Positions 2,570 through 53,144 of a stretch of 64,000 bases of DNA are shown here, piece after piece; the first letter of the stretch is position 1; each line of letters opens with the position of its first letter. The translations under genes and the position numbers were made by a program. The stretch is from Astropecten irregularis (taxonomy: Eukaryota > Echinodermata > Asteroidea > Paxillosida > Astropectinidae): assembly GCA_963971285.1 (NCBI GenBank), contig OZ020252.1, positions 18,079,662 through 18,143,661 on the forward strand, written 5' to 3'. The notes below the pieces were generated by a model that saw nothing but the letters and a program-made list of their open reading frames with translations, had not been told where the DNA came from and did not search any database.

Positions 2570-4421
2570 CTGATCAAAGACTTCCTTAGCGTCTTCCTCC
2601 TCATCGTCCTCTTGGGCAGAGTCTATGATCTCAATGAAGGCAGATCTACCTCTCCCGTTTATTATATCCCGAGCCTCCCGGCTCAACTGCAGCTCAAGTT
2701 CTTTGGTATCCATCTCGTTTTCCACCATGTCATCATCATCTTCATCTTCATCTTCATCGTCATCATTAGTTATCGCTGTCTCTTTGGTCTGCATTGCAAT
2801 CTCTAGTTTGTCCAAGGCGCTGGTGGCCACTGGATCGCAGCCAGGGCTCTGCTCGGTGTCCACGTACGAGGATGCGATAAGGCTGGGTTCATCCACGTGG
2901 CCCGTCGAGGAAAGGAATGTTGAAGAAGCATCTGTGTTTGCATCTGTGTTAGTCTGGTTGCCTGTCTTGCCCCGGGATTCCCCTGCGAGGGGGCCTCGAC
3001 CGGGGCGATCAGTCCGAGTCAACACGATGCTCGAGTCCCAATTTGGGCTCGCTTCGGTCTCCTCGGCTGTGGCGGCAGACACGGTGATCTCGCGCTCTTC
3101 CACGGTGGTGTCAGAGGCGGATGCCTGAGTGCTGTATTCAGAAGACATTTCTTCGCTATCCTCCTCTTCATACTCCTTGGAATAGCGGCGAATTCCCGTC
3201 CTGAGCTTGTGGGGGGAGCCAGACGAACGCATGACAACTTTCTTGGCAGTTGGAGAGGTCGGAGAGGTTGGGGACACGGGGGATTTTCTATCTTCTAAGT
3301 ACGCTCCGCCCTCTATATCAAGACCAAGTTTTTCATGTAGATTAATCTCGGGCTCGTCCAAGGCAATGAGAGCTGATGCAGAAACAGCTGCCTTGGTCTT
3401 GGGGGCCTGCACATGGTGGATATTTGTGGGACTTACTTCCATTCGTACAAAAGGCACAGGATCATCCAGGCTCCTACGCTTCTTTTCCTCCTCAGGCGAC
3501 ATGGAGCGCATCCGTGCACGACGCACCACTGCCGATTCTCCCTGGTCTTCAGCTTGCCTCTCTGTTCTGCCATTTTCCACAGTCGCGACTTGCTGAGGTC
3601 TTGTTGGCCTTGGCGAGGTCGGAGGTGAAAGCGTGGACCTCTCCTGTGGCCGCTGTTGGTGAACAGGTTCAGTGCTAGATGATTGAAGAGGTGAGTAAAA
3701 ATCTTGAACAACTTTGGAAAGGGGGCCAGCACTGCGAGTACTAGTACTATCAGAAACCTTGCCATCAAAACGGCGCGACGGTTTTTCAGGAACATCTACA
3801 GGAGATGGCCGGCCAGTTAGAGTCCTCTTGGGAGATTCGTTCTCTATGGAACTACCTGTGCTATCTGTGGAAGTATTGCGGCTGTAGCGTTTCTTGTTGA
3901 CGTGAGGACTGGTGGGTGGACTAAGAGGCTGCTTTGCTGTTGTGGTCATGCCCTTTCTGGAGGTTGGTGGGCTAGTGGCATGGTTGGTGGCCTCAAAGAG
4001 CATCCGGGCATTCTTGAACCGCATCCTAGGATCAACCTTGTTGTCGGACGACCGATCCTCATCTTGGTCCTCGTGCTGTTGATGCGTCAGTATGTTCAAG
4101 TTGAACTCCTGACTGGACGGCCGCGGCCTACTGGAATGCTGTGGTGCTGCGGTCTGCGGGGGATGCGCCACCCCGTTGGCCGTGTTGACCTTCGGTCTGA
4201 GAGGAGGCTTGGTGTCTTGCGGGGCCGCCTCAAAGAGATGGCGCAGCTTGCTGACCTTTGCTCCCGGCGTGGTGGCGATGTGCATCTCCCTAGCGACGGA
4301 GGTTCTCCTCTCAACGTTGATGCTGCCACTACCGCCTCCGCTGCTCCCGCCGCTACCTCCACTGCTGCTGACTCTGGTTGTCATGGTAGCGGACATCTCT
4401 ATCTCATCATTCCCCAAGGAT
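2570..4421 (-). CDS. PPP1R9: Neurabin/spinophilin-like scaffold, first coding exon (partial gene)
   Basis: Neurabins are F-actin-binding scaffolds that dock protein phosphatase 1 at synapses and cell junctions. The exon runs from a polypyrimidine/CTGCAG acceptor (exon start 4421) to a CAG|GTAAGG donor (last base 2570). The first in-frame ATG, at 4396-4394, gives 609 codons ending in phase 0. The upstream acceptor implies at least one 5' noncoding exon. The protein is Ser/Thr/Pro-rich and probably disordered, with many S/T-P sites (SPTSPTSPT). It has neurabin-style hydrophobic repeats: VSKLRHLFEA (about residues 48-57), RFKNARMLFEA (126-136) and a weaker SKVVQDFYSPL (227-237). Near the end is an Asp/Glu run. 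These resemble the N-terminal repeats of vertebrate neurabins (IKNLF, TRKMFE, LSAVFE). The PP1-binding RVxF motif, PDZ domain and coiled coil would lie on exons left of the window and are not seen. Head-to-head position with sarcoglycan supports the call. Another actin-binding scaffold remains possible. Confidence 0.75.
2741..2766 (-). repeat. GAT/GAA trinucleotide run encoding an acidic tract
   Basis: The plus strand shows CATCATCATCTTCATCTTC-type repeats. Read on the minus strand they encode an Asp/Glu tract inside the neurabin-like exon. Such runs vary in length between alleles. Acidic stretches also precede the PP1-docking motif in vertebrate neurabins, which I know from the family and do not see here. 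Confidence 0.8.
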
Positions 4422-5754: not shown

Positions 5755-5875
5755 GACCATTTCCGGGTGATGATAACCCGAGACGTAATCAAGCAGGGAG
5801 ATGAAAAACCCAATCAGCAGAGTGCCTCCGGTGGGATTTGAACCATCAACCCCTGAGATGCGAACCGAGGAAAAT
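5755..5875 (-). mobile_element. tRNA-like SINE fragment, family 3
   Basis: The minus strand carries a B-box like GGTTCAAATCCCACCGG next to GGGTTGATGG, and the A-box half is poorly preserved. It differs from SINE families 1 and 2. A single copy gives only modest support. Confidence 0.45.
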
Positions 5876-6540
5876 TACAATTATGTCATCACGACTGCCC
5901 AACTTAAACAGAAAAAAATAAAAGCTGTTGCTTTTTGGGTATAAGACACACCTCTGGCCCCTAATTTTCCTCAAATCCACACCATTTAATTTCCGGTTCA
6001 AATCCTGGTAACTCATAACCACACAACCACGCAATTTTACTATGAATTACATACATTCCAGTGGGTGACAGTGCCAGTGGTACAGAGAAAGTCAAGTAAA
6101 TAACCCATTTCAATAGCTCAATAGAGGCAATATGACCAAACAACAAACATTACCAAAAAGGCACTGCCAATTCCAAATTATTGAACGTGAACAGCTAGAA
6201 ATACGTGAAGCTTTTCAAAAGATTTAGGAAATTGTAACAATGACAAAAAATGTCAGTTCATGACAACAATTCATAGATAAATTTAATTCTATCGTCACCT
6301 TTTGATGCAAATCTAGCAAATTATCTTGATCATGATCTTGAAATCTCTAAAATATGACCAAAAGCACTGATTCTTCATGCATCTCTACCACTGTTTTATA
6401 AACATAAATTATAGATTAAAATCATAATTCTGCAATACGAAAACAAAACCCTACAATTTCCGGATTTGATTTGGTGGACATTTTATTTGAATGATACTAA
6501 AATATTTTTAATAATCATATAAATTGTAGGCCTTGTACAG

Positions 6541-6735
6541 TATCATTTCATACTACATGTACATTGTACATGTACATTATGTACTACATAGTATCAAAAA
6601 AACAATTTATACAGTGTAGCAAAATGTTTCTTAACTTTTACATATATTTTTACAATAATGTACATAAGCACATGTATGTATTATATTACATAGGCCTGTA
6701 CATTGTAAATGTACAATACATGTATCACACATGTA
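6541..6735. repeat. Cluster of TACATGTA / TGTACA palindromes
   Basis: TACATGTA, GTACATGTAC and variants occur many times in under 200 bp. The same octamer recurs across the left 16 kb. This is a compositional repeat with no known function from sequence alone. Confidence 0.7.
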
Positions 6736-11110: not shown

Positions 11111-12681
11111 TGTTATCATGCTGAAAGGACAGTGCTTTCTATAGTCACAAAACTAACATGTAAATGCAATATGTTCGTATATCACTGTACTACAGTACAT
11201 CAATGCTTTGGAGAGATTTTGTTTACATCTTTTTTTGCACATGGTGTGAACTCAAGTATATTATAATACCAGTAAATGTTGAAAACTGCTCTAAATTTCA
11301 AAACGAACACTGCACTTAAATGTTTACTGGAAACTTCCAGGGTATAATAACATGTTTTGATTACCAACTTTAAAATATGTGTAGATTGTATTCAGATATG
11401 ATATGGGCTGGATATTTTACCAAATTCATTTGTACACGTACATGTGTACGTGTGCGCATTTGGTTGTCAATGAAAAAACTGCTAGTGTTGAACTAGTGTT
11501 GTTCCTAAATGGACCGTTTTGGCTTTGCTCTTAAGCCCTGCCTACCTTAGCAATGCCATGTGTTGTACACATATGTACAACATGACCGAGGTACATGTAA
11601 TGGACAACAATGGCAATGGTCAATATGCACATTTTGATCATGACAGGCCGAAAGGGCCCATTAGCTAAAAAAGAGAATCGTTTATGTTGTTGCTAAACCC
11701 ACATGCACTGCTGTAACTGGTTTAAATCAATTGTATGTTGGTCCACACATGGTCCGCTGGCTTACCTATAAGCGTGACATGAAACAGTCAATGATATGTG
11801 GTCGTGTTCCCAGTCTTCATGTATAGGTTTGTACATGGGCCCATTGCTAAAGCACGTGAGGATCTTTTCATCGCGCACAAATGTATGGAACCTTCAAACA
11901 CTGTGTGCATTCAAAGTGACACGCGACAAATTTGTTGAAATTGCAATCCAAAAAATAATCGTAAGTACCACTGAAGTACCACTTGTTCATGTTTGACATA
12001 TAGAAGCCGGCAGGTGCTTTTATGGAATGTTTTGACTTGATTTCAGGTGTTTTTGAGGCGATCTGTTTATGATTTAAGTTTTACTACATTACTTAGCGTG
12101 GGACGTTAGTGCGACTGATGAAGTCAAAAATCGTTAAAAACAAGCTCTAATGAGTAACGGCCCAGTAAGTGGGACCAGGGCCGGGCCTATTTATTTAGTA
12201 CTTTATTTAATATTAATAATATTACACTTACAGAATAGGGATTAGTGTCAAGTTTTACGCCACCCATTATTATTTTAACAGTATTTATTTAGCTTCTAAG
12301 TTTTACTGTTCCAAAATGAGATTGTTACATAAAAGCAAATATTCATGGGGGTCCTGTAAACCCTGAAATGAACATATTTCGGTAATATTTCAGTGAAAAA
12401 AAACCACAACAGTTTCCTTACTTACCCCAAATAATTACTGAAAATGATATGGGTAAAAGACACCAATGCCCAGAAAGGGGCCTAAAAATCCTTCCACTGA
12501 CTGAAGTAGAACATAATATATTTGTAAACACCATGGTAGATATTGCAATATTTTTTTCCAAAGCGAGTATGAAATGAAATGAACCCTCCCCCTTTCCACA
12601 ACACACTGTACACGCGCTATCTAGACTACAGCATCAACAAAGTACCTGCCATTTCTAATGTTACGTCGACAACGATGACTT

Positions 12682-12684
12682 ACC
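12682..12684 (-). other. Candidate 5' splice site of a neurabin 5' UTR exon
   Basis: On the minus strand the sequence CAG|GTAAGT is a perfect consensus donor with the exon end at 12684, about 870 bp from the sarcoglycan start codon. A noncoding neurabin exon upstream of this donor would place the two divergent starts close together. One consensus donor can occur by chance. Confidence 0.3.
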
Positions 12685-13555
12685 TGTAATATTACGAACT
12701 CGTAATGATAATCCAAAGAAAACACGCGCTAAATCCGTTGTATCTCCTTAAATTAGTAGCAGAGCTACACACTATGTAAAACGGGTTCCAAAAAATGATA
12801 AGGGGCTTGCAACCCAGTGATAAATACCCCCAAAAGATTCTACTAAACGAAGGGAGTCTTCCGTGTTCGGTCTCTACTCGGCCACCATTTTGTTCAAGTG
12901 GGCAGTGTGTGTTGTATTGACATTTGGATCGAATCTTTTCGATGCATCGATTATATAAAATATGCCAACAATCCAAGAAGTCACTTCAATCCATCATGAA
13001 AAAATACCAAAATTATCAGACACACCCTTATTATATTTTAAATATTCTATACTCAAGTGAAAATTAATTTTTCAGTCGCTTTTATGATTTTCTGTCCTTC
13101 ACTTTTTGATGTATCGATTTGTCCCGATATTGACAAGAAGCGAAGGGTGTTTGACCTTATCGAAATCATCTTTGGCGTAGTTCATTTTTTAAGAGGAATC
13201 CAATTTCATATTCCCAATAAAGTGAATCTAATTTTTAATATGTAGGGACGAAATGTTTACAATCAATAATATTATTAAATCTATTATAATCTATTGACTA
13301 GTTTAAAAGAGATATTGTGAATATTATATCCATTATATAATTTATTTTATGATATAATATCGCAGTCCCTTTAAATTTACCCCCTTTGTAATAATGGTTG
13401 TGTCCATACCAGGTCAACATAACAAGATCTTTCCGTCTGCTGTGTGTGTGACTGGACGAGTTTCATTTCCAAATTATCGCTATTTTTCCTTCATAATAAA
13501 CAGTTTTTCTCTGCCAGGAGGGCCGGACAGAAGCTGATTGGTGTGCACGATCACC

Positions 13556-13589
13556 ATGGCATCTGACATATTATATGCTGTTATTTTAG
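13556..13589 (+). CDS. SGCE: Sarcoglycan exon 1 (start, signal peptide)
   Basis: ATG in CACCATGG context, 11 codons plus one base (MASDILYAVIL), then donor TTTTAG|GTATGC. Together with exon 2 it forms the hydrophobic signal peptide. Any upstream 5' UTR limit cannot be set from sequence. Confidence 0.85.
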
Positions 13590-19500: not shown

Positions 19501-22500
19501 CAGTGTACATGTATATTAAAGGTAATGTAAGTCACAAAGAGGCAGAGACATATTAAATAGAAAGGAAAGAAAACAAAGAATTCTTCAAAGGAGAATTAAC
19601 TATGAAAGGAGTTTAAGAGAGCTGAACATCCTAACAGAAGGGTCCTAACAGTTCCCATTTCATCCTGAAAAGCCAAATAGAAAGGGCCAATTTCTGTTAA
19701 CAGGACAATAAATGACCAGCTGTGTACAATTAACATGTAATTTTTTATACTTTTGGCTATTGGAGGTCTAATAGTCTGTACTCTATGCAATTCTGATATG
19801 ACCTGCTCTTCAGAATTAGGCAAAGTTGGACAAGCAAGCCACTATATGGTATTCTGGAGGTCACAGGTTCGAATCCCACTCCAGTCACTTTTTCTTTGTT
19901 AACTTTTCAATGACCCTTTTAGTTGTTTGGTGATCATAGAGATGGATTTAGGCAGATTTAGTATGGTTGGTGGTCTGGAATGTCACTAAGACACACAGAT
20001 TGCAAAGGCCCCTCTTCTGGCCAAAATACCTCCTTCAAAAGTTCCCTCAAACATTTTATATTTTCCAATGAAAATGCCTGTACTACCTTGCCTCGCAAGA
20101 ATCAACCTTCAGACCGCTCATGCTTCCTTGCAAATCATGTTACCAGTGTTTTTCACTTTTCATTTTGTGACATTAATCTAAACAGGTGTATGAAGCACAG
20201 TGATGATAGATATTTATCTTGAACATTCACTGAGGCTAGATGTCCAATTTCATATCCTTTTCCATTCTTTCTCTTTCTCTCTTTGCAGTTTTAGCGTTTG
20301 CAGTCTCTCCGTTTTCCTGCGACGAGGCAGCAGTGGGTGTCATCTATCAGTATCCACTCAACATGGGAGATTTCTTTGGACCCTTTTCATCGGGTAAATG
20401 TCGCATCAATGAGTCATGCATGTCTTTGTTAATCTGTGTTTTGCTAAGAAATTTAATTTCTCTGTTTCTTTTGGGTCTTTTTAATAAGATGGCAAACTTA
20501 CATTCAGTCGTGGCTTGGTGTTTCTATTTGAGAGAGGTAGGACATTGATGTTTCATGTTTGGATGACAAGTCAAAATTCATGGAAGAGATTTGCGCAAAT
20601 ATGGCTCTGGTCTGAACCATTTTGACAGTGTCACTGGTTATCAATCATAAATTAATTGTTTATTTTGGAAGCATTTCCTCAGCAATGATTCATGCCAAGA
20701 AGTTTGTAGAAAAAGGACATAGATCCCATTCTTCACTGTAAAAATTTGACATCAAAGTCCAGGCCAGGGCTATAAGAAAGGTGCTTCATAGTCATACATA
20801 TATTGTTACGAAAACAAAATGATCCTCTTTGAGTGATCCCCCATGCACCATTTCTCAGGTTGCAGCATTGCTAATGCTGCATGTATCGTACATTATCTGT
20901 GGGATATAACGGTATATGAGTAGTTCCATGGCTTCTGGATGCCCAATTAACAAAGATAATTGACAATTAGGGACACCACCAATATAGGGCTGGGTAGCTC
21001 AGTTGGTAGAGTACCTGTACTGTATTCCGGTGGTCACTGGTTCGAGTCCTGCTCCAGTCAATTGTTCTTTGTTCACTTTTCATTGAAAAAAACCCTGCAG
21101 TATTAGGTGAGAAATACATTCTTCGCACTACCAAAAATTTATAAAGTACTTGGTGCAATCAAGACAGTTTGGCATGAACAGGCATTTTTTTTTTTTTTTG
21201 TTGAAATGTCACTATTAATGATCATCCGAATATTTTGCCGTGTGCCTTTGTTTTGTCATAATAGGTATTAATTCCCATAGGTTATGCATGTATGTCTGTT
21301 TGTTTCAGTGAGTAAATATTTATCACACAGTGTGAACAAAAGACAGATTGACTCAGGAGCCCTGATTGTCTAGAAGGATACAAAGCCACGAGATTCTTCC
21401 CAGTGGGAGTACGTCCCTTGTAGTGCCCTGCTCCCTACAGCCGGTCATCAGTTAGTGTCCGTGTCATGCCGTAACTGGCTCTCTACCCCCGCCCCCCTCT
21501 CCAAAGAATTTGTTTGAACTTGATTCAGAAAATTGGTTTCTCTCTTTTTTCTCTTTTTTCATTTACCCCTAAAGACTGTCAACTGTGATTACATTTAACC
21601 TCTCCTATCTAAATGAATCTTCCGGAATCCAATGGAAGGATTCTGAAGAGCTCTGAAAAGTAGAGCCCAGGGGTCGATTTCTCGAAGCCCTATGATCGAT
21701 CTTAACTCAAGTTACGAAGGGTCATCCCTTCGTATCCTACATTTGGCTGCAATGCATTATTAGTCCTATGATTGTTAGTAAGTTAAGATGAGTTTGGTGA
21801 AATCGACCTCCGTTGGCATAGCATTTTTTGAAGTTTGATGGCCCAACTCGGTCCAACTCTAAAGCATGTGCCATATTCTAGGTGTTTGATGCACTTTAGG
21901 AGTTCAAGGGATTCAAGAAGGTCCAGAAAAAAATGCCTACATTTAGGGTGGGGATTAACTTAAATTAGCTACCGGTATAATTTTTTTTAAAATGGCAATT
22001 CTAAAGGCTTTACGCAGGTTTTGCATTTGTTAAAAAAATGAAGGAATGTTCATAGATTTAAAACCTAAAGCGACTCAGTATGAAGATTATAATGCAAGCA
22101 GCCTCCAAGTGAAATATTTTATTTCTATAAGTTTTTATAGAAAAAGAGTAAAACAATGTCCAAGAGTTACTTTGTGTCGATCAGCCAGAGATCTTGAAAT
22201 GCGTGATAAATGTGCTCAATATCACTGCTATGAAGCAGAACGGCTAGTGTTACATTGCTTTCTTGTAGCAGTACCTAGATAGAATTTTCACAGGTGTTTT
22301 GCTTCATGTACATTTTCATACAAGTTCATTATGTTGAGTCAGACAAGTTTGACTCTCATTCTGTTCTGCTCTGACCTAAAGCAGTCATGTGTCAAACAAA
22401 ATTTCTCAACATGTGTAGTTGTCAACAGATTTCTTTATACAGTTTTACATTCTTATACTTTCTTACAGTCTAACCCGTCAACATTGTATGTCTATAGAGG

Positions 22501-31500: not shown

Positions 31501-34500
31501 AGCCTGGTCTTGGTATGTCACAATAAATATATTGATGGTCGCTGGTTTGAATCCCACTCCAGTCAAATTTTTGTTTGGTTCACTTTTTCAATGACTTAAA
31601 ATGAATCCATTGTGGTTATTTGATTATTACATCATTTGTTTGTTTTTAATCAGACTCCACCTGAACAGTCATCTGAGACCAATGACCCCGCCCACCTGAA
31701 GCCCATCCCCCTGGGTGGGGAGTACATGCCCCCAGCACTGAGCGATGAACCCAACACCCGTCTGATTGAGTTCTTGCTGATCGTCGTGCCCCCGCTGGTT
31801 GTGGCTCTGGTCTTCATCATTGTCTTGGGATTCCTCATGTGCACATGCCGTGGAAGAACGTAAGTGCTCATGACAGAGTTGTTGACTCGAGTCGGTGACT
31901 TGGACTCGAGTCCGACTCGAGTCACTGATTTTAGTGACTTGCGACTTGACTTGACTTGAGCCAAAATGACTTGCGACTTGACTTGACTTGAACCAAAATG
32001 ACTTGAGACTTGACTTGACTTGAGCCAAAATGACTTGACTATTAAAAAAATGACTTGCAAGTCAACATTAGACCATCTTGTATTTTAAATGATTTGCCTC
32101 CCAAAAGAAGAAAATTTAACTTTTTCTGCCATAAAGCACCGAAACAATGTTCTGTAGCGTAAAACTTACACAGCACGTATCGGGCGATAGAGCTCACACA
32201 ACGGTCGAAATATCTTGATCGCACGGTGCCTACACAGCGACCACGAGGTATACGGTGTGCTGTGAAGAACGATGGGCCTGTTGTGCTCGGAATTATTAGA
32301 CTTGCCTCAGTCTTCGGATTACTTTAACAACCGGGGTATTTTAAGTACGACGTATGACGTCGTAATGATTTGCTCAATAGTTCAGCTCACGTGCGTGTGT
32401 AGCCTAGCGCCGGCCGTGTACACACGAGAGTCAAGTAATGTTGTTTACCGATAGACGAGGGAAAGCTTTTCGCGTAAAAATTCCCATGATATCGACTGAT
32501 ACAAGTTTACTAGGTCTGGTTCTTGACTACTCTTGAGTCTCGTCTCTAGTTTACTATTATGTGATTCCGTAACCAGACTTCCATTGCATCGACGGTACGT
32601 TTTGTGCCATGTGTGTAGGGAACACGAAGCAAGTGTTTCTGCTGGTCGTAGAGGACATTAATTTCCGACATTAGGACCTATTTTTTTGTTTCGCTGGGTG
32701 AGGAAATCTTCCATAACCCACAGTGAATGTTCATTTTGCTTGTGCTTATAACTCGCAAATGGCAGGATCATTATGATGTTGGATTATTAAAATGGAACGA
32801 CAGGAACGCACTTCGTAACAAGTTTTTTCACCACTAGCATGGAGGAAGGAAAAGCTAACGTCAGCTTTCGATTAACGTTAGTTTTAATATAATTTTTACA
32901 GTGTGATATTTTTGCTATGATTTTTTAATGTTTTATATTTATTTGTATGAATTTTTTGACGATCGAAAAACAAGTTTTCAGCCGTGTTGTGTTTATGGGT
33001 TCTTTAACTAGGCCTACCATGCCACTGAGTACCAGTAAAATGGAACAGACTCACCGTGTCAACTTCAACTGTCGTGGCATGGCGGCTGCCATTTTATTCA
33101 CACGCTCCATGCCCAACTCTTGTAACATGAAGCTGGTGTCTTTATAGTAAACACACAGTTATATACAACAGGCCGATCTTAAAAGCTCTTTATTCTTGTT
33201 TCATTATGCACCCTCTAATGTGTTAGATGTCCCTTCTTTTATTCAACGGCCATCTATTAAATAAACAGTTTTCCCATCTGCAGCAAAGACTGTGCGGATT
33301 AGTTTATTTTGGTGCAAAATATTTTATGGTTGACTTGTTGACTTGACTTGACTTGCGACGAAATGACTTGTGACTTGACTTGACTTGCGACGAAATGACT
33401 TGCGACTTGACTCGACTTGCGACGAAATGACTTGTGACTTGACTTGACTTGAGACAGAATGACTTGCGACTTGACTTGACTTGAGGAAAAATGACTTGGT
33501 TACAACTCTGGCTCATGACGCTTGGGTCAGGGATTATTTGAGTATCCTACCCTTCTAATAGATTGTGTGAGTTTTGTAGTTGTAATCACGGCTTGATATT
33601 GAGAGTGGAAAAATAATAACAATTACGACAACAGTATTCATTAAGTGCCAAACAACCGCAATGAAAAGTCACTACTAACAATGATTAATTGCGGTAAACG
33701 CTGCTATATTGGATTTTACTTAACCTGGTGATCCCAGCTAGCTTGTTGGCCTAGTGGGAAGACATCTGCTCTAGTAAGCAGGAGATCGTGGGTTCGAATC
33801 CCACCTGAGCCAGTTTATAAATTTTGTTCTTGCAGTGAGTATGCAGTGCTGAAATATCGGTGAAGGGCAAGCCTAATTTGTATTGGATAATTTGAGTATT
33901 AGGGAGACAGGCAAGCATTTGAAATTGAACATTGGGAGACATTTGGAATTAGGGAGACATTTTGATGTCTTCCTAAGGTGTTAGCTAACATTTGAAGAAA
34001 ATTTTGATCGTCCATATTAATAGAGAATGCTCTAGCTCAATATGACCATATACCGTATCCATTTTAAGTTCATTGGTTTGGAGGATGTTTAGGAATAGGT
34101 AATTAAAGTTTGTGCACGACTCTATGGGAATGTCTGCCTATGTTTTCAAATAGAGGTATACTAAATATTAAAGTTATTGATATTAACTGTTTGTATTCTT
34201 CTGTGTTTTTTCTGCAGGAAAAGCATTTCAAGAACTCCTGAGTAAGTCAATATTTTTGTTGCCCTGGTCGGAACTTGACTAAAGCACATTTGATTTCCGT
34301 TCTGTGCACAAAACAATTATGACTAATTATAATACATCAAAACTCATTACAAAGTCAGCTGTGTATTAATTTCCTATAATTAACCTTTTAAAGTTTCAAG
34401 GTCCTTATGACTAATACTCATAAAATATAGTTTACTACTACTAATTTAGATGTGTAATAATCACATATTTATCTGTATTTCCACAGTATGTAATTTTCTG

Positions 34501-40500: not shown

Positions 40501-43500
40501 TATGAAGGGTAGTGCCTTTTTTATACTTAAAGGTATAATATATGATTGGTAAAGGTCACAGAACAGCACTCACACTTTGTCTAAGCAACTGCAAAAAATT
40601 TGAGCTCAACATGTGGGTCACAAGAAAATAGAGAAAAACCAACTACGTTTTTCTTTTATAACATAAAGAATGGTTTTGGTCTTACCCCGAGATCAGAACT
40701 GTTTTCGGTCTTTGTTTTACTCATTTCTGGATAAATACACCATTTCAGGTGGAAATATTTTAACCGTATGTTTCTACCAGCACCATCTTCATATCCTTAA
40801 ATTTCTACCTAAATCTGTGAACATTTCTGTTTGGGTATGTTACCAATCCTGTACTGTACAAAGCTTAGCAAAAACTTGCACCGAATCTCAATCAGGAGTC
40901 TTACAAGTCAATGGGAATAGTGTTGTAGACTACACCCTATCAACAAACAAATCGTCAGAAACATGAAGATGTAAGTTAGCATCTCTGAAATAAGAGATCT
41001 GACTGCTTCTTTGGGTTTGTCTGATTTGTTCTCCTACAAGCCTGATAGAGTCTAGTGACAGGCCTCCTTCCCCACCTAGGTGGACCGAGCATCGTCTCCG
41101 ACCCCAGTTGTTCTACAGTTGTTTGACAGAATGACTTGGCCGGTTTCCCTAAAACAAATCCCCCTAAAACAATAGAGATTCCCCATCTGAGCTGACAATG
41201 GCTCGGTTGCCTGTCCAATTGCCGTTGCTCGCACCACTTGTCTCAATTATCTCTGGGAAAACTGCAGAGTCACCTAAATAAAGTTTGTGGGTGTATTTTG
41301 TGGTCGCCTCACAAGGGTTTCATTAACTTTCAAAGGACGAATTGGGTTATTTCTGGAAATACCCACCCCTGACTTCGATGAAGAGTTTATATCTTTATCT
41401 TTATAAGGACAGGTTTGCGGAGACACCATGTATAAACTCTTTATAGATGTGTGGTTCTGAAAAGAACCGATGAGAAGTTTGATCTCGACGTTCCGGCCAG
41501 TGTACTCTGGCCGTCCTCAGAAGAGTGTGTAAGGACATCCACAGTACACTGTCTGGAATGTCGAGATCCAACTTCTCACTGGTTCTTTTCAGAACCACAC
41601 ATCTATAAAGAGATTATACATGGTGTCTCCGCAAACCTTTCCTGATTACGTGACTTCCACTACGTAAGCTTCATATCCTACTTATCTTTATTTTCCCAAT
41701 TGAGCGAAGAATGCATAAAACAAGTATTCACGCCAAGAGCAAAATGTACAAGGTTTCAAGCTTCAAGAATTTCAATTCCAATCTTCGTTGTTCCTCTCAT
41801 TATCAGTTTTACCCGTGCATGTGTTGTCATTTTCATATTTTTTAATATTTATAGCAGTAATTAATTCCCAGTCATGCATCAGTTCTCCCTTCTCTCAGAA
41901 TTTGAATTGGTTTTTAATGTTGGATCCACTTCCTAATGGCAACAAGTTTGCATGATTTTGTTTGTTGTTTTATTTCAATATTACAAATTATTTTTCATTT
42001 TCTGTAGTTGATCCGTAGGTATCTGTTTTCCCTGTTTATTTATATTTTTTGTTTGGTTGCAGAGTGTGTTGAAATGATTTGATTTTGTTTTGGAGAAATA
42101 GATTTTATATATTTCTTTTTTAATTGGAAATGTTATTTTCTAATTGAATACAGATAATATTGAAAGAACGCTGATGCAATAATTTTTACTTCATAATTTC
42201 TCAACACTGTACGTCTGAATGTGATATTCTGAGGTTATGCAAGTTACAGGCTAATATTAGTCAATTCTTGGACATCCAAATGCTGATGAACAGATCTACA
42301 TGTATAAGAAGACTAGGTTGATGACTGAGGCTGGTCGTAATAAGTACCGGTATTCAATCATGTTTGACAATTTGAAGCAAGTGGTTAGATGGGATGCATA
42401 TCTCTTTCCATCCAGTGTGATCTGAGGCAGAATCCGGATATGTCTTATTGAGTCTCATCTGATGAAGGACAGGAAAGATGTCATAGAGAAGGGGATCAAG
42501 AAACTAACATGTGACAGTTTGGTGCAATGCTGCCAATGCTCCACGACAAGTGGTCTCTATCAGTTTATAGCTGATAGGCTTTGGCCTAAAATTCTGCTTC
42601 TCATGGCGGAGTTTCTGAAATAAATTGCTTTGGAGGTTAGGGTTTTGTTTAAGAAGTCGATTTTAGGACTTACCGTTTAATACCCCGTATCCCATGCTTC
42701 CCCCTCTCTGCAGAATACAATTGACCCATCACCAAGGTATTCGTCAGGCTAGTCGTCAACTGAGGGCGCTGTCCAATCGTCGAGACGCTGCTCCTTCGTC
42801 CTCACCAACGACTCCTATTATTCCCCACGGTGCAAATCCAGCAGTCAGTAGCGTGCATTCCACGCCTCGGCATCATATACGGTATGTCCTGGTGTACGTG
42901 GAAGTGGAAGTTAGCATGAGGTCACTTGAGGTTACATTGGGGTTGGGCTGGGATGGGTTGGGATGGGATGGGATGGTTTGGCTTGGATTGGGTTTGGTTT
43001 GGTTTGGTTGGGTTGGGTTGGGTTGGGTTGGTTGAGATCAGTTGGGTTGAGTACATGTATGTCTTGGCTGGGCTTGACTTGTTGTGGATTGGGTTTGGTT
43101 TGGTTGATGAGGTACTGGGTTGGCATGGGTTGGGTTGGGTTGTGTTAGGCTAGGTTAGGTTAGGTTAGGTTAGGTTGGGTTAGAGTGAGTTTGTAATGGC
43201 ATCCAAATATGTGGTCCACCTTTGGTAAAAGGTCCATGATTGGAAAGCATGTGTACAAAACCACTGGAGCTGCTGCCAAACAAAAGAGGAACAATATGGG
43301 TCCACTGTTACAGGAATTTACACTCTGGGGTTGGGTTGGTTTTTCAATGAAGTTTGGCTATGCCTGTCTTTTTTCATGTAGAGTTTGTTCGTTATGAAGT
43401 CCTTTATCGATATCAGCTAAAACAATAGCATTTTAAAAATTTATAAGTTTCTTCCAATATTAAGCTCAGATATTCATACTCTCATCAGAGCTTTATACAG

Positions 43501-46500: not shown

Positions 46501-49500
46501 AAGAAGTGCGAAAGAACAAACGATTCTTACATGGTGTTTCTGCACACTGATCCACATGCCAATTGTCATCATGCAAAGCCTCAAATCTTTCATGGATAGG
46601 TTATTATTTAAGGGATGGTTCTTGCCAATTATATTGTTCAGTGGTAAAATTCAACCACCACGAGGGTGACATTTCTTGGGATAAGAGGCGGTGTTAAAAG
46701 AACCTTTAGAGATGTCGACTGTGCATTCTGGCTAATATATGCACTGACCGTCTTTGAGAGGAGGGAAGGAATTCAGAGTTTATGGTTCTGCTCTTGAATG
46801 ATGTCATTTCCTGCCATTAGCCTCGTGCACCAGCATTGTGCTTGTCACATGTTCATGATGTGCACCATCTATGTGATATCTCAACCATCTTCACTCGATG
46901 TTCAGAACATTATTCAGTCTGCACAAGTGCTCATTTAGTGGCTTTGAATATGTAGTTGTAATTTTTCTCCCTTTTTTTGGCAGCATCTTGTGAGAGAGAT
47001 CCATTTCTTTTGGTTCTTTCAGAACCAAACAAAGCCCCAGTATCTTATAAATATCAGTTACTTCCTTGTTTGAGGTTTAGTTCCAATTCTTTCTTTAGTG
47101 CTTAGAGTTAGGGGCCTAATGTTTCGATCCTAGCAGGATCTTTCGCAAAGGCTTTGATCATTTGGTAGACTGCTTGTACAGTATTCCAGTGGTCACTGGT
47201 TTGAGTCTTTTTTTTTCTGTGTTCAATGACTTTTTTTCAATGACTTTGAGAAAGGGTTAGGGTTAGAGTTAAGGTTAAGAATCTTTCTTTGAGCCTTTGA
47301 GAAAGATCCTTCTTGGATCGAAATGCGTCAGGCCCTCCTAACTCCAAGCATGTCATATGTATTTCAGGTCATTTTGGATGATGAGCAGCAGTTTCTAACT
47401 TGTAACATTTGTTTTTCTTTAGAATCAAGTTGAGGTATTGTTTAATCTGAAACTCACAGGGTCATACTCCAAGCAATTTGTAAAGCGAAGTGAATTTGAT
47501 GTTTGCCGCAAACAGTTAGCACAAGTTGAAATGTGCTTATCTTCTTGCGAACATTCGTTACGAATATCCTGTTGTGACGTCAGTTTCACTTCACACTCGC
47601 TTGGACTGGTGTATGAATCGTGCTTTTGGAAATACTCCTGTTTCTGTTTTTTTAAAGATATTGGCAAATTTAGTTGTTTCTTTCTCCAAAGACACATGTT
47701 TAGAATGAATTTGATTGAAAATTGCAGAGATCCGGACACGATACCAATGGCCAGCACTCCGATGTTCTGTCGCACACCCCCTCCCCCGTATCGAGTGCCT
47801 CCGCAGCACACATCGACCCCCACGACCCCAGGCCACCAAGAGACAAGCTTCAGGTAGGCCTGGAAAATCATATTTTAAACAAATTGTTAATTCAGAATAA
47901 TTCAGAATTAAAAACACGACAACATTTCTGATGAAGCCAACAATTTTGTGAATTGGATTAATTTTCGATCGCCTTTTTTCCCTTATTGTTTCAGTGACCC
48001 CTTTGATAGTCGGAGGTCGTCCGAACCCGGAAATGCAAGAGGTAAATTTGATTCGTCATCAGGTCTGTTCTCTCTCTTTGGCTTCCCAGCATTCCCTTGT
48101 TTCTATTTCCTGTCCGGCTCACGTTTTTCTTACCCCCGTGTCGTCAGGGCAATGCTGCTTCCTGATAAGTTTCTCTGAGATACATATGGTATCCTAGGGA
48201 TGGCCAGAGCACACTGTTTGACCAAAAAAATGTAGTTTTTAACTTGTCGGTTCTTCTCAGAACTACGCCTCTTCCATTAAAGGATTTGACTTAGTGTACC
48301 CGCAAATCTAACTAAATACATATGGTTGTTTTCTTAATCACCAAATTCCACCTTATTTTACCTAATCCCAGTGGGAAAAAACAGTTTTTTTATTCAGGAA
48401 TGGTACCAGGTAATTAAAATTCCTCCATATGTCTGCTTTTGTATTAAATTTATAAATACACTGAACCTGGTTTCAAAACATCACATCCTTTTCATGTAGA
48501 AGTTTCGTACATGATTAATTTTCTGATTGACTTGCAAAACCATGCACCTCAAAGGTAAATTTCATTAAACATCCTTAAATTATAAAGCAAATGATAACTT
48601 TCAGGCGCTTTTTATTTCTCAACTTTGACATTTGACTTACAGAATTTTGATCCTATTAATAGCTATAGCCTGATACACTCATTCAGGGCAGATATTTATA
48701 GAGCTGCGAAGCCCACAACCTTTCTGAGGCTAGAAAAAAATCTTGGCTCAGTATGAAAGAGTTGGTTACCAACCCAAAGTCCATATAATTTTATGGCTTG
48801 AGAGCTGGTTCCCTTGCTGGTGTTCTTGTGCGTAATATAAAAATATGCTTACCTAGCGATATTTTCGTGCTAAGCGACATTTGGGGCTCTGTTGTTTCAT
48901 GGACTTACCACTTTCCTTTTCTTTCTTCCACTTTTTCTCTCTTTCTCTCTGGTTTCCGTGCCTTTCTCTTTCTCTCTGTTGTGTCTGCCTCGCCTCTCTG
49001 ATGCATGGGTCTGCCTCTGTCCTCTCAAATCTTTCTCATTCTTTCAACTGCAACATGATCTGCTTCTGTTTAAAATCCTCTTCGTTCATGAACCCTGTGC
49101 CTCCCGATATTGTTTGTCAATGTTCCCTGCTATTCTCCTTGAGCGTCTGTTGCTTTCTGCTTTGTCTTGACTCCACAAAATATCATCTTCGCTGTTCCTT
49201 TCTTCTACCTCTACCATCTTTCTTATTCTTGCCTGTCTTCTAATGCTCATCCCCAAACGTTTGTATGTCATCTTCCTCCAATTTTTTCAATGCTGCTTTC
49301 GTTTCTTTCTCTTTATGTCTCTAATTTCTGATGCTTCGGTAAAAATGTTTACTCTGGAATCTTTCTCCTTCTTTGTTCTTTGGTCTTGTGAATCTTTGTC
49401 TCTTTGTTTCATTCTGTGACCGTTGTGTTGTTCATCACTGCATCTGTCTTTCAACATCATCTGGATATGTTGTGTCTCTGTTACTTTTGCATCGTGTTGT

Positions 49501-52500: not shown

Positions 52501-53144
52501 AATTTCATAGAGCTGCTTAAGCACAAAATTTGCTTAAGCATGAAAAGTCTTCCTTGATCAAACTGGATTACCAACCAAATGTTCATGTGATGATTACTGC
52601 TTTTGACTTGTATTCGGCCATTGTTTGCTGAGCATAACATTAACAAGGAGTTTTGGACTGGCATACTGATTTTTGTTACCAAGGTTTTTGGTGCTTACCG
52701 GTAAGCACATTTTGGTGCTTAAGCAGCAATTGGACAATATACTGCATACTCTTGAATGTTGCTCATGGAGATTATACCTAACCAATGGCAGACTAATAGC
52801 TCATAAATATGCATGAGATGTGAATAATAGGGAATGAGTTGCCATGGCATTGCCGGAGGACAAAAAGAAAACAAATTATTGCCTTGAGAATGTCTAAATC
52901 TTCAAATCTTCAGAAAGCGAGACCACAAGTTTTTCTATGTTGAGGAAACTCAAACTCTGTAACATCTTTCATTTAGTTGTTTCTATTTACTAATAAATCA
53001 TCATTGTTTTTGCCCCTGTTTTATTCTTCTTCTTTTTTTTATTTCCCCTCAGGACGTCAGATGCCCTCACCGATCAGGTCTCCACCCCCATTCATGAGTG
53101 GTGCGCCCGGAAGAGGCACCTCCACTGGTGTGTCTGCATCCTAG
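13556..53144 (+). CDS. SGCE: Alpha/epsilon-sarcoglycan, complete 12-exon gene
   Basis: Single-pass membrane glycoprotein of the sarcoglycan complex, which stabilises dystroglycan-dystrophin at the plasma membrane. Exons: 13556-13589, 20289-20393, 23930-24069, 26583-26655, 29932-30109, 31353-31512, 31654-31859, 34218-34241, 42714-42881, 47728-47853, 47995-48041, 53053-53144. All introns are GT-AG and phases agree throughout; CDS 1353 nt, 450 aa (human epsilon about 437). The start has a good context (CACCATGG). Features: hydrophobic signal peptide (about 1-21); extracellular cadherin-like part with LPSWLSYLQ and FVYGT, typical of the family; N-glycosylation sites NIT (N89) and NGT (N205); Cys203 and Cys226 (EWC, like DWC in vertebrates); transmembrane helix about 269-292 followed by CTCRGR; cytoplasmic EIQLTHH matching DIQLVHH of epsilon-sarcoglycan; Pro-rich tail. 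An invertebrate gene would be co-orthologous to SGCA and SGCE, so the symbol is a convenience. Confidence 0.95.
13848..14005. mobile_element. Foldback element, family E
   Basis: Arms AACCGGTCTTCAAGTCAAC and its reverse complement GTTGACTTGAAGACCGGTT are perfect over 19 bp, extended outward by GGGAGACA / TGTCTCCC. The loop is CpG-rich with alternating GCGCA. A decayed relative lies at about 22725-22885 (CATGCG, GCGCAATTGTG, AAGTTGAAGACC). Confidence 0.85.
14764..14953. repeat. Inverted tandem array of a 16-17 bp unit
   Basis: About seven units like ACCAACTCGTATGCTG in direct orientation are followed by about three in reverse complement (GCATACGAGTTGACC). The orientation switches near 14875-14895. 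Confidence 0.85.
15425..15505. repeat. TACATGTA palindrome cluster
   Basis: GTACATGTAC and ATGTACAT repeat about six times in 80 bp. The compositional motif is the same as at 6541-6735. Confidence 0.75.
16372..16502 (+). mobile_element. Family H element with terminal inverted repeats
   Basis: Left end CAAGTAATAAACTGC and right end GCAGTAGTTTATTACTTG are near-perfect inverted repeats about 130 bp apart. Between them is the family core (GCTAGGATCGAAA, GTCAGGCCTTCCTAACTCC). This copy defines the element ends best. Confidence 0.8.
19836..19920 (+). mobile_element. tRNA-derived SINE family 1, 3' half
   Basis: Only the B-box half is kept: GGTCACAGGTTCGAATCCCA, CTCCAGTCA, then CTTTGTTAACTTTTCAATGA. 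Confidence 0.75.
20289..20393 (+). CDS. SGCE: Sarcoglycan exon 2
   Basis: Acceptor CTTTGCAG, donor TCGG|GTAAAT, 105 nt. It completes the signal peptide (LAFAVSPFSC) and begins the mature extracellular domain. Confidence 0.9.
20935..21090 (+). mobile_element. tRNA-derived SINE family 1, near full length
   Basis: The leader AACAAAGATAATTGACAATT and GGGACACC is followed by GGGCTGGGTAGCTCAGTTGG (A-box) and ACTGGTTCGAGTCC (B-box), then CTCCAGTCAATTGTTCTTTG. The leader is shared with the copies at 50250 and 61590. Confidence 0.9.
21668..21812. mobile_element. MITE family C (GGTCGATTTC ends)
   Basis: Ends GGGGTCGATTTC and GAAATCGACCTCC are inverted. The interior CTTCGTA, GCAATGCATTATTAGTCC and GTAAGTTAAGATGAGTT is shared with copies at 26005-26142 and 61918-62075. 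Confidence 0.8.
22725..22885. mobile_element. Decayed foldback, family E
   Basis: Shares GAGCATGCGTGCGCAATTGT and AAGTTGAAGACC with the element at 13848-14005. The arms no longer pair well. Confidence 0.6.
23930..24069 (+). CDS. SGCE: Sarcoglycan exon 3
   Basis: Acceptor CTTCCAG, donor GAG|GTATGT, 140 nt. Encodes the family signature PSWLSYLQ followed by FVYGTP and the NIT glycosylation site. GC-rich codons stand out from the AT-rich flanks. Confidence 0.95.
24204..24568. mobile_element. MITE family A, complete copy (365 bp)
   Basis: Begins TTAAAGGTAATATCATAC and ends GTATGATACTACCTTTAA, an inverted repeat of about 20 bp. Both ends carry TTAA, compatible with a TTAA target site or with the terminal repeat itself. 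No open frame for a transposase. Confidence 0.9.
25047..25160 (+). repeat. Poly-C tract and dispersed 'TTATTAAGCGCCTTT' tail motif
   Basis: A run of about 17 C is followed by (AAT)n and TTTTTATTAAGCGCCTTTAC with CCAAAGCACTGTACA. A motif of this kind (AGCGCCTTT...AAAGCGCTTTACA) ends many SINE/LINE repeats in animals, from general knowledge. Confidence 0.6.
25824..25850 (+). repeat. (GGCTT)n pentanucleotide run
   Basis: GGCTTGGCTTGGCTTGGC, the same unit as in the long intron-9 tract at 45090-45130. Confidence 0.8.
26005..26142. mobile_element. MITE family C
   Basis: Ends GGGATCGATTTCATCAAACT and TTCGTGAAATTGACCCC are inverted. The interior AACTTACTAACAATCATAG and GGGTTATCCTTCGTGA matches the other two copies. 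Confidence 0.8.
26255..26435. mobile_element. Partial MITE family A
   Basis: CCCATACGGTGCCCACTTTT, TTGAGAAAAC and CATCATTTCAGGC match the family-A interior. Terminal repeats are lost. Confidence 0.7.
26583..26655 (+). CDS. SGCE: Sarcoglycan exon 4
   Basis: Acceptor TTTTGACAG, donor TCAG|GTACGT, 73 nt. Encodes a beta-strand pair (IIALNTNTY, VKVPITVTD) that matches the VIEVTAYN...LVLEIGD region of vertebrate family members. Confidence 0.93.
26685..26930. mobile_element. Repeat family D
   Basis: Reverse orientation relative to 2305-2535. Shares GGTTGTGGTTTTTCATTGAA, GAAGCTCTGCTTTC and GGAGCCTCAGCCTGAGCC. Confidence 0.7.
27470..27545 (+). mobile_element. tRNA-like fragment
   Basis: CACCTTCCAGTCTCACCGTT then B-box GCAGGTTCGAACCCCT. 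No second copy is found in the window. Confidence 0.4.
29345..29510 (+). mobile_element. 3' end of a LINE-type retrotransposon
   Basis: One frame reads FKTLLKAHLFQE at about 29375-29410, the classic C-terminal tail of LINE reverse-transcriptase ORFs (FK..LKTHLF). It is followed by a short 3' UTR with CTCAGCGACTTAGAGCAA, CACTTTATAAATG and GATTGATTGA, typical of such elements. Heavily 5'-truncated. Confidence 0.7.
29590..29720 (-). mobile_element. Family H element
   Basis: Reverse copy: AGTAATAAACTGCTGCAAAT, GCTCATCAGCC, then CTTGGAGTTAGGAGGGCCTG and CGATCCTAGCAGGATCTTTC. Confidence 0.8.
29932..30109 (+). CDS. SGCE: Sarcoglycan exon 5
   Basis: Acceptor TTCCCATAG, donor AGG|GTGAGT, 178 nt. Encodes an extracellular segment (ATFHLSNHNVEDML), equivalent to the EFLVRSHDAEEVLP region of alpha-sarcoglycan. 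Confidence 0.94.
30110..31352. other. Sarcoglycan intron 5
   Basis: 1.2 kb. Apart from a family-A MITE end (31196-31292) close to the exon 6 acceptor I see nothing recognisable. Confidence 0.7.
31196..31292. mobile_element. MITE family A, 3' end only
   Basis: CCATCTTTATACCCTGTAAG, TTTCTGTTTTGG and CTACCAAAGTATGATAGTAC match the right part of family A. It ends 60 bp before sarcoglycan exon 6. Confidence 0.75.
31353..31512 (+). CDS. SGCE: Sarcoglycan exon 6
   Basis: Acceptor ATTCCACAG, donor TTG|GTATGT, 160 nt. Encodes GVYVIVGST, Cys203, the NGT glycosylation site and EWCSLVL, aligned with VYIKVGS and DWCNVTLV of the vertebrate proteins. Confidence 0.95.
31520..31640 (+). mobile_element. SINE family 1, 3' half, filling intron 6
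   Basis: GGTTTGAATCCCACTCCAGT, CACTTTTTCAATGACTTAAA and GTGGTTATTTGATTATTA match the 3' half and tail of family 1 (compare 61590-61756). Intron 6 is 141 bp (31513-31653), so the SINE makes up most of it. Confidence 0.8.
31654..31859 (+). CDS. SGCE: Sarcoglycan exon 7 (transmembrane helix)
   Basis: Acceptor TTTAATCAG, donor AAC|GTAAGT, 206 nt. Encodes the juxtamembrane linker, the membrane helix (core IVVPPLVVALVFIIVLG) and the CTCRGR stop-transfer segment. A hAT element begins 14 bp after the last exon base. Confidence 0.95.
31935..32055 (+). repeat. Left subterminal minisatellite of the hAT element
   Basis: About three units of 32 bp: TGACTTGCGACTTGACTTGA then CTTGAGCCAAAA. Confidence 0.85.
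33330..33500 (+). repeat. Right subterminal minisatellite of the hAT element
   Basis: About five units of about 32 bp: TGACTTGCGACTTGACTTGA then CTTGCGACGAAA. Same strand orientation as the left array, so the arrays are direct and not inverted. Confidence 0.85.
33735..33850 (+). mobile_element. tRNA-derived SINE, family 2
   Basis: GCTTGTTGGCCTAGTGGGAA resembles an A-box arm. CTAGTAAGCAGGAGATCGTG and GGGTTCGAATCCCACC give the B-box. Relative at 10095-10205. Confidence 0.8.
34218..34241 (+). CDS. SGCE: Sarcoglycan exon 8, 24-nt microexon
   Basis: Acceptor TTTCTGCAG, donor CTGA|GTAAGT. Encodes KSISRTP with split codons on both sides. Being 24 nt, it can be skipped without changing frame (exon 7 and exon 9 share phase). 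As I recall, human SGCE has a similarly tiny cassette exon at this place. Confidence 0.85.
   Translation, partial: EKHFKNS
34617..34991. mobile_element. MITE family A, complete copy (375 bp)
   Basis: Begins TTAAAGGTAATATCATAG and ends GTATGATACAACCTTTAA. Interior nearly identical to the copy at 24204-24568. Confidence 0.88.
36309..36385 (+). mobile_element. MITE family B, left end
   Basis: CCAATTTCATCGAGCTGCTT, AAGCACACAATTTG and AAGCATGAAAAGTCTTCCTC match the complete copy at 52499-52735. Confidence 0.7.
36880..37115 (-). mobile_element. MITE family B (about 235 bp)
   Basis: Reverse orientation to 52499-52735. Shares CAGCAAACAATGGCCGAATA, CAAGTCAAAAGCAGTAA and TGATCAAGGAAGACTTTTCA. Ends carry TGCTTAAGCA-like inverted motifs. 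Confidence 0.8.
37470..37525 (-). mobile_element. Family H fragment
   Basis: GCAGTTAGGAAGGCCTAAAG followed by TTTCGATCCTATTAGGGTCC, a diverged copy of the core. Confidence 0.6.
40690..40855. mobile_element. MITE family A, right half
   Basis: TTTCTGGATAAATACACCAT, TTCAGGTGGAAATATTTTAA and CACCATCTTCATATCC match the family-A right half. The end is degraded. Confidence 0.7.
41401..41645. mobile_element. Foldback element, family G
   Basis: Arms of about 90 bp: AGGTTTGCGGAGACACCATG, TATAAACTCTTTATAGATGT and GTGGTTCTGAAAAGAACC, repeated in reverse complement on the right with few mismatches. The centre is CCAGTGTACTCTGGCC. A partial relative is at about 48235-48310. Confidence 0.88.
42714..42881 (+). 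CDS. SGCE: Sarcoglycan exon 9 (cytoplasmic)
   Basis: Acceptor CTCTCTGCAG, donor ATACG|GTATGT, 168 nt. Begins EIQLTHH, followed by RQASRQLRAL, the conserved cytoplasmic start seen as DIQLVHH...ELRDM in vertebrate epsilon-sarcoglycan. Ser/Pro-rich after that. Confidence 0.93.
42935..43195 (+). repeat. G-rich TTGGG/ATGGG tract ending in GGTTA repeats
   Basis: Irregular GGGTTGGGATGGGATGGG and GGTTGGGTTGGGTTGGG runs, then TTAGGTTAGGTTAGGTTAGG near 43151-43175. The G-rich strand is the sarcoglycan coding strand. Confidence 0.9.
44985..45660 (+). repeat. Long G-rich TTGGC/TTGGG/CTGGG tract with higher-order duplication
   Basis: About 675 bp of pentamer arrays (GGCTTGGCTTGGCTTGG, GGGTTGGGTTGGG, GGCTGGGCTGGG). 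A segment with AATTGGGTTGGTA, GATTTGGCTTTGGATGATTG and GAGTTGG occurs twice, about 185 bp apart, giving a higher-order repeat. Confidence 0.9.
46440..46595 (-). mobile_element. Foldback family F, remnant
   Basis: AAGAAGTGCGAAAGAACAAA, CGATTCTTACATGGTGTTTC and CATGCAAAGCCTCAAATCTT match, in reverse, the outer arm of the element at 51010-51275. Confidence 0.75.
47090..47160 (-). mobile_element. Family H fragment
   Basis: GAGTTAGGGGCCTAATGTTT then CGATCCTAGCAGGATCTTTC. Confidence 0.7.
47159..47250 (+). mobile_element. SINE family 1 fragment
   Basis: TACAGTATTCCAGTGGTCAC, TGGTTTGAGTC and the TTCAATGACTTT tail. Degraded. Confidence 0.6.
47285..47410 (+). mobile_element. Family H element
   Basis: TTTGAGAAAGATCCTTCTTG, GATCGAAATGCGTCAGGCCC and TCCTAACTCCAAGCATG, ending in GATGAGCAGCAGTTTC. 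It lies 130 bp from a reverse copy, so the pair flanks a SINE fragment. Confidence 0.78.
47728..47853 (+). CDS. SGCE: Sarcoglycan exon 10 (cytoplasmic)
   Basis: Acceptor AATTGCAG, donor CAG|GTAGGC, 126 nt. Encodes IPMASTPMFCRTPPPPYRVP, matching the PLSTLPMF...PP segment of the vertebrate tail. Confidence 0.92.
47995..48041 (+). CDS. SGCE: Sarcoglycan exon 11 (cytoplasmic)
   Basis: Acceptor TTGTTTCAG, donor AGAG|GTAAAT, 47 nt. Encodes SDPFDSRRSSEPGNAR, an Arg/Ser segment with possible basophilic kinase sites. The preceding intron is only 141 bp. Confidence 0.88.
48235..48310. mobile_element. Foldback family G, remnant
   Basis: GTCGGTTCTTCTCAGAACTA, then TAAAGGATTTGACTTAGTGT and CCGCAAATC. 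It shares the layout of the right arm at 41555-41640. Confidence 0.5.
48880..50050 (+). repeat. 1.2-kb pyrimidine-rich (T/C) stretch
   Basis: Strong strand asymmetry, with long CTTTCTCTCT and TTCTTTGTTC runs, a (CT)n/(GTCT)n microsatellite at 49911-49938 and (CTTT)n near 50020-50040. Open frames here reflect absence of purine-rich stops, not genes. Confidence 0.85.
50250..50410 (+). mobile_element. tRNA-derived SINE family 1, near full length
   Basis: Leader AACAAAGATAATTGACTATT and GGGACACC, A-box GGATAGCTCAGTTGTTAGAG, B-box GCAGGTTCGAATCTC, then CAAGTCAATTTTT and CACTTTTCAA. Confidence 0.87.
51010..51275. mobile_element. Foldback element, family F, with hammerhead-like core
   Basis: Arms: CTATGTAAGAATTGTTTGTA, CACTTCTATTTCGTTCGCAC and GGTCTCAACATTTCGACTAA on the left, repeated in reverse complement on the right, meeting at about 51153-51161. 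The centre has CTGATGA (51154-51160) and GAAAC (51180-51184) bracketing a GACTAG/CTAGTC stem. Remnant copy at 46440-46595. Confidence 0.85.
52499..52735 (+). mobile_element. MITE family B, complete copy
   Basis: Starts CCAATTTCATAGAGCTGCTT and ends TTGGTGCTTAAGCAGCAATT. The termini form inverted GCTGCTTAAGCA motifs. Interior GACTTGTATTCGGCCATTGT matches 36880-37115. Confidence 0.82.
53053..53144 (+). CDS. SGCE: Sarcoglycan exon 12 (C-terminus and stop)
   Basis: Acceptor TTTCCCCTCAG, 92 nt ending in TAG at 53142-53144. Encodes RQMPSPIRSPPPF and a Gly/Ser/Thr-rich end. The 3' UTR follows. Confidence 0.9.

Follow-up and report, generated by a model that had tools for sequence, protein, structure and literature searches.

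A divergent neurabin-sarcoglycan gene pair in the sea star Astropecten irregularis, a likely pre-duplication counterpart of the vertebrate SGCE-PPP1R9A and SGCA-PPP1R9B loci

Results

Gene content of the window

The stretch of Astropecten irregularis DNA analyzed in this study (hereafter the window; 64,000 nucleotides) corresponds to C16:18079662-18143661, where C16 is the contig bearing it in an assembly of 475.7 Mb and 168 contigs. Three genes were found in the window: the start of a neurabin gene on the minus strand, an alpha/epsilon-sarcoglycan gene on the plus strand and a nearly whole PA2G4 gene on the minus strand (Table 1). An earlier sequence-only reading had seen a neurabin-like exon on the minus strand and a complete sarcoglycan gene on the plus strand, divergent and with about 9 kb between their coding starts. 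The exon is borne out as the large first coding exon of neurabin (PPP1R9), the ends named for the span (2570 and 53144) agree with our exon and stop coordinates, and the coding starts lie 9160 bp apart, provided that exon 1 of the sarcoglycan is the predicted one at 13556-13589. Completeness holds with two reservations: the sarcoglycan model has 11 exons, 442 residues and a stop, but its exon 1 is a prediction and a 27-nt exon 8 was not found. The pair itself is confirmed.

As modeled, neurabin spans at least 170 kb and the sarcoglycan about 40 kb. Six-frame Pfam searches of the interval between them (4430-13545) gave nothing at E up to 0.05, a criterion that a gene without a Pfam domain would escape; by this criterion the two genes are adjacent, with no intervening gene. 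Minus-strand Pfam scans of C16:18059662-18079661 gave no other gene above the cut-off.

Several repeats were observed in and around the genes. tRNA-like sequences at 67-141, 8141-8213, 20988-21060 and 33739-33813, together with matching stretches, lie within repeats that are dispersed over the window and are probably tRNA-derived SINEs. Long GGGTT/GGCTG pentanucleotide arrays occupy 42940-43181 and 45009-45618 in a sarcoglycan intron, and tandem repeats of the TTGACTTGACTTGAG type, at 31935-32037 and at 33331-33498, flank 32001-33000, the stretch with the highest CpG o/e in the window (1.26).

Table 1. Features of the neurabin-sarcoglycan locus and its surroundings (window positions unless a contig is given)
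Feature	Position	Strand	Remarks
Neurabin matches on C16	17976012, 17953957, 17947848, 17920393 (weak, E 0.13), 17910766	-	Spinophilin query
RKLKF exon (neurabin)	C16:18060224-18060126	-	KHVAELDALSDTDEEDALTLKSRKLKFSKEPIR; phase 0 at both ends; best acceptor taken
Neurabin/PPP1R9 first coding exon	2570..4421	-	Met at 4396; 609 codons; phase 0 end
CpG-preserved stretch, candidate shared divergent promoter	12501..13500	.	CpG o/e 1.05; window mean 0.52
Predicted non-coding neurabin first exon (5' end approximate)	12684..12900	-	Donor CAG/GTAAGT; first intron base 12683
Sarcoglycan predicted exon 1	13556..13589	+	Kozak CACCATGG; signal-peptide start; phase 1 end
Sarcoglycan exon 2	20289..20393	+	
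Sarcoglycan exon 3	23930..24069	+	Core of PF05510 match
Sarcoglycan exon 4	26583..26655	+	
Sarcoglycan exon 5	29932..30109	+	
Sarcoglycan exon 6	31353..31512	+	
Sarcoglycan exon 7	31654..31859	+	Transmembrane segment
Sarcoglycan cytoplasmic exon	42714..42881	+	IQLTHH...
Sarcoglycan cytoplasmic exon	47728..47853	+	
Sarcoglycan cytoplasmic exon	47995..48041	+	
Sarcoglycan last coding exon	53053..53144	+	Stop TAG 53142-53144; AATAAA at 53247
PA2G4 (Ebp1)	58422..64000	-	Stop codon ends 58422; first codons just past right edge
CASD1-family gene (Cas1_AcylT, multi-exon)	C16:18473770-18480654	-	341 kb past sarcoglycan stop

The neurabin gene

The first coding exon is preceded by the acceptor TTCTGCAG (before 4421) and ends GATCAG/GTAAGG, the first intron base being 2569. 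Its 609 codons had no Pfam match, and a phage-collection search with the exon gave nothing useful. Full-length alignment to vertebrate neurabins was no better than alignment of shuffled sequences and was set aside: 34/300 (spinophilin) and 138/300 (neurabin) shuffles reached the score with BLOSUM62, and 61/300 did so for each with BLOSUM45. When five neurabin blocks were used instead, B and E stood out (3 and 46 of 1000 shuffles reaching the score) while A, C and D did not (181, 819 and 539 of 1000). Blocks A and D, which match one and the same place, were shortened after this first block test; a colinear A-B-E chain was then reached by 0/1000 global and 0/1000 local shuffles, and an A-B-D-E chain by 0/1000 global and 1/1000 local shuffles. 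The match of block E to the last part of the window exon was rejected as coincidence, the true counterpart sitting in the RKLKF exon described below, and the A-B-E figure is inflated as a consequence. A and B together were reached by 6/1000 shuffles before shortening and 0/1000 after. What remains as evidence for neurabin in the window exon is these two blocks and the exon phase. From the window alone, the identity of the left gene was only suggestive.

The same exon contains VSKLRHLFE (4255-4229, minus), an exact copy of the motif VxxLxxxFE that 17/5000 shuffles also contain, and FKNARMLFE (4018-3992, minus), a partial fit in which FE is present and V and L are absent. The motif is defined in PMC13364712 as a short actin-filament motif found in 103 human proteins, with PPP1R9A among the alignments (Fig. 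3 legend); for the proteins traced there, the paper reports no motif-positive orthologues in Cnidaria, Mollusca or Nematoda.

The sequence to the left of the window settles the identification. The C-terminal half of spinophilin, confirmed in part by PDB, was used as a genome-wide query (E up to 1) and gave 20 matches. Five of them lie on C16 to the left of the window, all on the minus strand and arranged as in the protein. Two of these five are the best two genome-wide (E 1.6e-13 and 3.1e-13) and the weakest has E 0.13; the remaining matches are weaker and scattered, as expected of other PDZ proteins. By this query, the genome holds one clear neurabin locus. A gap of 106 kb separates the window exon from the one at C16:17976149, and a splice-site and motif scan of this gap returned 33 candidate exons. 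The RKLKF exon ranked seventh of these by splice score and was picked for its sequence, which resembles the vertebrate docking region. It lies 22.0 kb beyond the window exon and its phase 0 fits the phase-0 end of that exon, the splice between the two being a predicted join. The exon closes with SRKLKFSKEPIR, a PP1-docking motif of RVxF type that aligns with SRKIHFSTAPIQ / NRKIKFSSAPIK; with leucine at the V/I position it is a variant of this motif, and docking is putative.

A PDZ domain of neurabin type is encoded by the exons at C16:17953957-17954106 and 17947848-17947964, and its top PDB matches are neurabin-1/spinophilin, well above the DLG and afadin PDZs. The coiled-coil exon (C16:17910766-17910978; 34% identity, E 1.2e-4) follows in order, on the minus strand like the other exons, and would supply the C-terminal coiled coil, a putative helical coil. 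With all exons joined, neurabin-1 and spinophilin come first in PDB (6.2e-61), DLG4 being the first clearly other protein (6.2e-24). The sequence-only reading had proposed that RVxF, PDZ and coiled-coil exons left of the window would confirm PPP1R9 and that a left gene lacking docking motif and PDZ would speak against it; all three were found on C16, minus and in order, and RKLKF and the PDZ dispose of the latter case. These results support the assignment of the left gene to PPP1R9.

The predicted protein shares with neurabin-1/spinophilin (PPP1R9A/B) an RVxF-type motif followed by a PDZ and then a coiled coil, and 92/132 residues from docking motif through PDZ are identical to human spinophilin. 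It differs in carrying RKLKF where the human proteins have RKIHF/RKIKF, and in an N-terminal exon that has diverged beyond full-length alignment. The parts present in the sequence are the N-terminal actin motif, the docking motif, the PDZ and the coiled coil, and, going by the family, the protein would anchor protein phosphatase 1 on actin filaments.

The sarcoglycan gene

The coding sequence of the sarcoglycan model comprises 1329 nt, including the stop. Its protein matches PF05510 (Sarcoglycan_2; E 6e-15, 55.4 bits, cut-off 24) and, under the cut-off of 24.1, the second sarcoglycan domain PF20989 (E 4.8e-4, 20.6 bits). In a PDB search the model aligned over residues 46-318 with alpha-sarcoglycan (E 2.7e-28), which it resembles in ectodomain, transmembrane helix (segment aligned with segment) and proximal tail, and from which it differs in a proline-rich tail past the aligned part. 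A search for the 27-nt exon 8 of human SGCA gave 17 candidates, none convincing, and exons 7 and 9 join in frame without it. Pfam and PDB searches with single exons gave nothing useful. The introns of human SGCA, which fall after c.37, 157, 312, 384, 584, 747, 956 and 983, agree in phase with those of the model in seven of eight cases, the fourth being in phase 1 here and in phase 0 in the human gene.

Exon 1 was predicted on the strength of its phase, a signal peptide and the Kozak context, and is one among many candidates; its donor scores only 6/9, and translation could instead begin at an in-frame ATG at 20240. The signal peptide is a by-eye prediction that depends on this exon. Going by its family, the protein would be a glycoprotein of the dystrophin complex that crosses the membrane once. 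Over the whole genome PF05510 gave two matches, with one above the cut-off, that of the window. The other, at C14:875587-875706 (E 0.2, below the cut-off), is possibly a diverged sarcoglycan relative; C14 also carries fibrillar collagens and a PDK-type kinase.

The interval between the coding starts

A CpG-preserved stretch in this interval (12501-13500) is second in CpG o/e only to the repeat-rich intron stretch 32001-33000. The start of PA2G4 has a similar level (1.05-1.07), as does much of the right flank; because the right flank and 32001-33000 are also near or above 1, CpG level alone is a weak promoter sign. The coding exon of neurabin has a good 3' splice site in front of it, so that the first exon of the gene probably lies further right. 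A non-coding first exon is predicted within the stretch from a minus-strand donor at 12683 that scores 9/9. The expected number of such donors is 0.0145 for 12500-13555 and 0.12 for 4422-13555; the minus strand of the window has four. A YY1-like AAAATGGTGGCC from 12891 (minus) falls inside this predicted exon, sites of this kind numbering three on the minus strand of the window and none on the plus strand (0.75 expected per strand), with the pattern written after seeing the sequence. On the plus strand, the Kozak sequence CACCATGG at 13552-13559, one of three copies on that strand, starts the predicted sarcoglycan exon 1 (13556).

The region at 12.7-13.5 kb is thus a possible compact divergent promoter, a proposal we regard as less likely than not. 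Under it, the neurabin transcript would start near 12.9 kb with a non-coding exon, which splicing would join across 8 kb to the coding exon. Sarcoglycan transcription would begin near 13.5 kb.

Neighboring genes in the genome

PA2G4 stands tail-to-tail with the sarcoglycan and matches PA2G4 entries in PDB (up to 4e-154). Its identity to human PA2G4 is 59.5% (228/383), a value we regard as lower than a vertebrate would give. Human PA2G4 is at 12q13, and PA2G4, SGCE and SGCA would lie on three Hox-bearing human chromosomes; a position of PA2G4 on a third member of the Hox paralogon would be consistent with different copies having been lost once the region was duplicated.

Three families that neighbor the vertebrate loci were searched in the genome (CASD1, fibrillar collagen and PDK), and one of the three, CASD1, is on C16. 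Cas1_AcylT had 10 matches in the genome, 7/10 at the C16 locus, which by sequence is a CASD1 family member, and 3/10 on C23. The chance of one of two such loci lying within 341 kb, on either side, is about 0.3%. The C16 gene converges on the sarcoglycan, just as human CASD1 converges on SGCE. The second Cas1_AcylT locus (C23:13787387-13789884) has a long open frame (369 aa) and may be either a retrocopy or another member of the family. Fibrillar collagens (23 matches in the genome, all on C24 and C14) and PDK-type kinases (five, all on C10 and C14) have no match on C16. Judged from these positions, the neurabin-sarcoglycan-CASD1 linkage looks old, while the collagen and kinase links either arose later or were lost in this genome.

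Discussion

The human SGCE-PPP1R9A and SGCA-PPP1R9B pairs are both divergent, like the pair described here. For mammals, gene orders are given in two papers: Casd1, Sgce, Peg10, Ppp1r9a (PMC7642923), and, in mouse, H1f9, Sgca and Ppp1r9b sharing one 100-kb region with Col1a1 on chromosome 11 (PMC13135081). For zebrafish, a table in PMC1851013 lists col1a1 as a one-sided syntenic neighbor of sgca, and casd1 likewise of sgce. The sea star locus resembles the SGCE-PEG10-PPP1R9A locus (7q21, 6A1 and chr 9 in human, mouse and pig) in having the sarcoglycan next to neurabin and CASD1 on the far side of the sarcoglycan (PMC7642923). It differs in that mammals have the retrotransposon-derived PEG10 in between as well as imprinting (PMC3820666 and PMC7642923), that COL1A2 adjoins CASD1 in mammals whereas no fibrillar collagen is found on C16, and that the immediate sarcoglycan neighbor here is PA2G4. 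With the COL1A1-SGCA-PPP1R9B locus (17q21, mouse 11) it shares the proximity of sarcoglycan and neurabin, which in mouse fall in that one 100-kb region (PMC13135081); COL1A1, present there in mouse and syntenic with sgca in zebrafish (PMC13135081 and PMC1851013), is again without a fibrillar counterpart on C16.

The locus is very probably a single, unduplicated head-to-head pair that preserves the gene order ancestral to SGCE-PPP1R9A and SGCA-PPP1R9B, which genome duplication produced from it. The earlier proposal of one ancestral pair before the vertebrate genome duplication is well supported by the presence of one locus each, the CASD1-family linkage and the published mammalian orders. The simplest reading, and a well supported one, is that the pair predates the vertebrate duplications; it is drawn from this one genome and the human arrangement. 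It provides a clear new instance of deep microsynteny and no new kind of system.

Two other explanations would change what the pair is. The same adjacency could have been assembled separately here and in vertebrates, as might be argued from the COL1A- and PDK-type neighbors of the vertebrate loci, which are elsewhere in this genome, and from a comparison confined to this genome and vertebrates. However, the same two genes are involved, they are divergent as in human, and the CASD1-family gene has the same relative orientation as in human; the probability of this by chance is very small, and we consider convergence extremely improbable. Alternatively, the 609-codon exon could belong to a separate actin-binding protein gene between neurabin and sarcoglycan. 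It lacks a Pfam match and aligns poorly full-length with neurabins, and its actin motif is shared by those 103 human proteins (PMC13364712). Against this, the exon ends in phase 0, matching the phase-0 RKLKF exon 22 kb away; Pfam scans covering most of that 22-kb gap on the minus strand gave no other gene above the cut-off; and the FKNARMLFE stretch is the best of 1314 window frames for one neurabin block. A separate gene thus appears quite unlikely, if slightly less so than convergence.

Why an ancestral pair has stayed together is a more evenly balanced matter. A divergent promoter region at about 12.7-13.5 kb would be a likely reason for its persistence, and the CpG-preserved stretch, the 9/9 minus donor and the opposite-strand Kozak start do resemble such a promoter. 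The linkage could instead be ancestral and kept without any shared control region, through slow rearrangement of a large gene-poor block, an explanation to which we give an even chance. A single stretch of introns in neurabin exceeds 100 kb by itself (the 106 kb from the window exon to C16:17976149), the coding starts are 9.16 kb apart, and one genome cannot show a conserved regulatory element; the CASD1-family gene has also remained linked, at 341 kb, which is what large-scale rearrangement at a slow pace would produce. Moreover, Peg10 lies between Sgce and Ppp1r9a in mammals (PMC7642923), which implies that tight promoter sharing is unneeded today. The fuller proposal is that one compact divergent promoter (12.7-13.5 kb) drives the pair and, before vertebrates arose, joined a scaffold for actin and PP1 with a glycoprotein of the dystrophin complex, that the imprinted SGCE/PEG10 domain of mammals goes back to a PPP1R9-SGC-CASD1 block, and that PEG10 was inserted later into the former shared promoter interval. 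Taken as a whole, we hold this to be conceivable but somewhat less probable than persistence through slow rearrangement. The idea of a shared control region is now tied to one named 1-kb stretch and is hence testable.

Among the papers listed by a literature search that did not reach most subscription journals, none describes the pair outside vertebrates, which is weak evidence of novelty. SGCE is the myoclonus-dystonia gene, within an imprinted domain, and SGCA is a limb-girdle dystrophy gene. If VSKLRHLFE binds actin, the actin motif of neurabin predates vertebrates. The pair described here offers a likely pre-duplication state for the two human loci, SGCE/PEG10/PPP1R9A and SGCA/PPP1R9B, and allows the linkages that look old (neurabin, sarcoglycan and CASD1) to be told apart from those absent here (COL1A and PDK).
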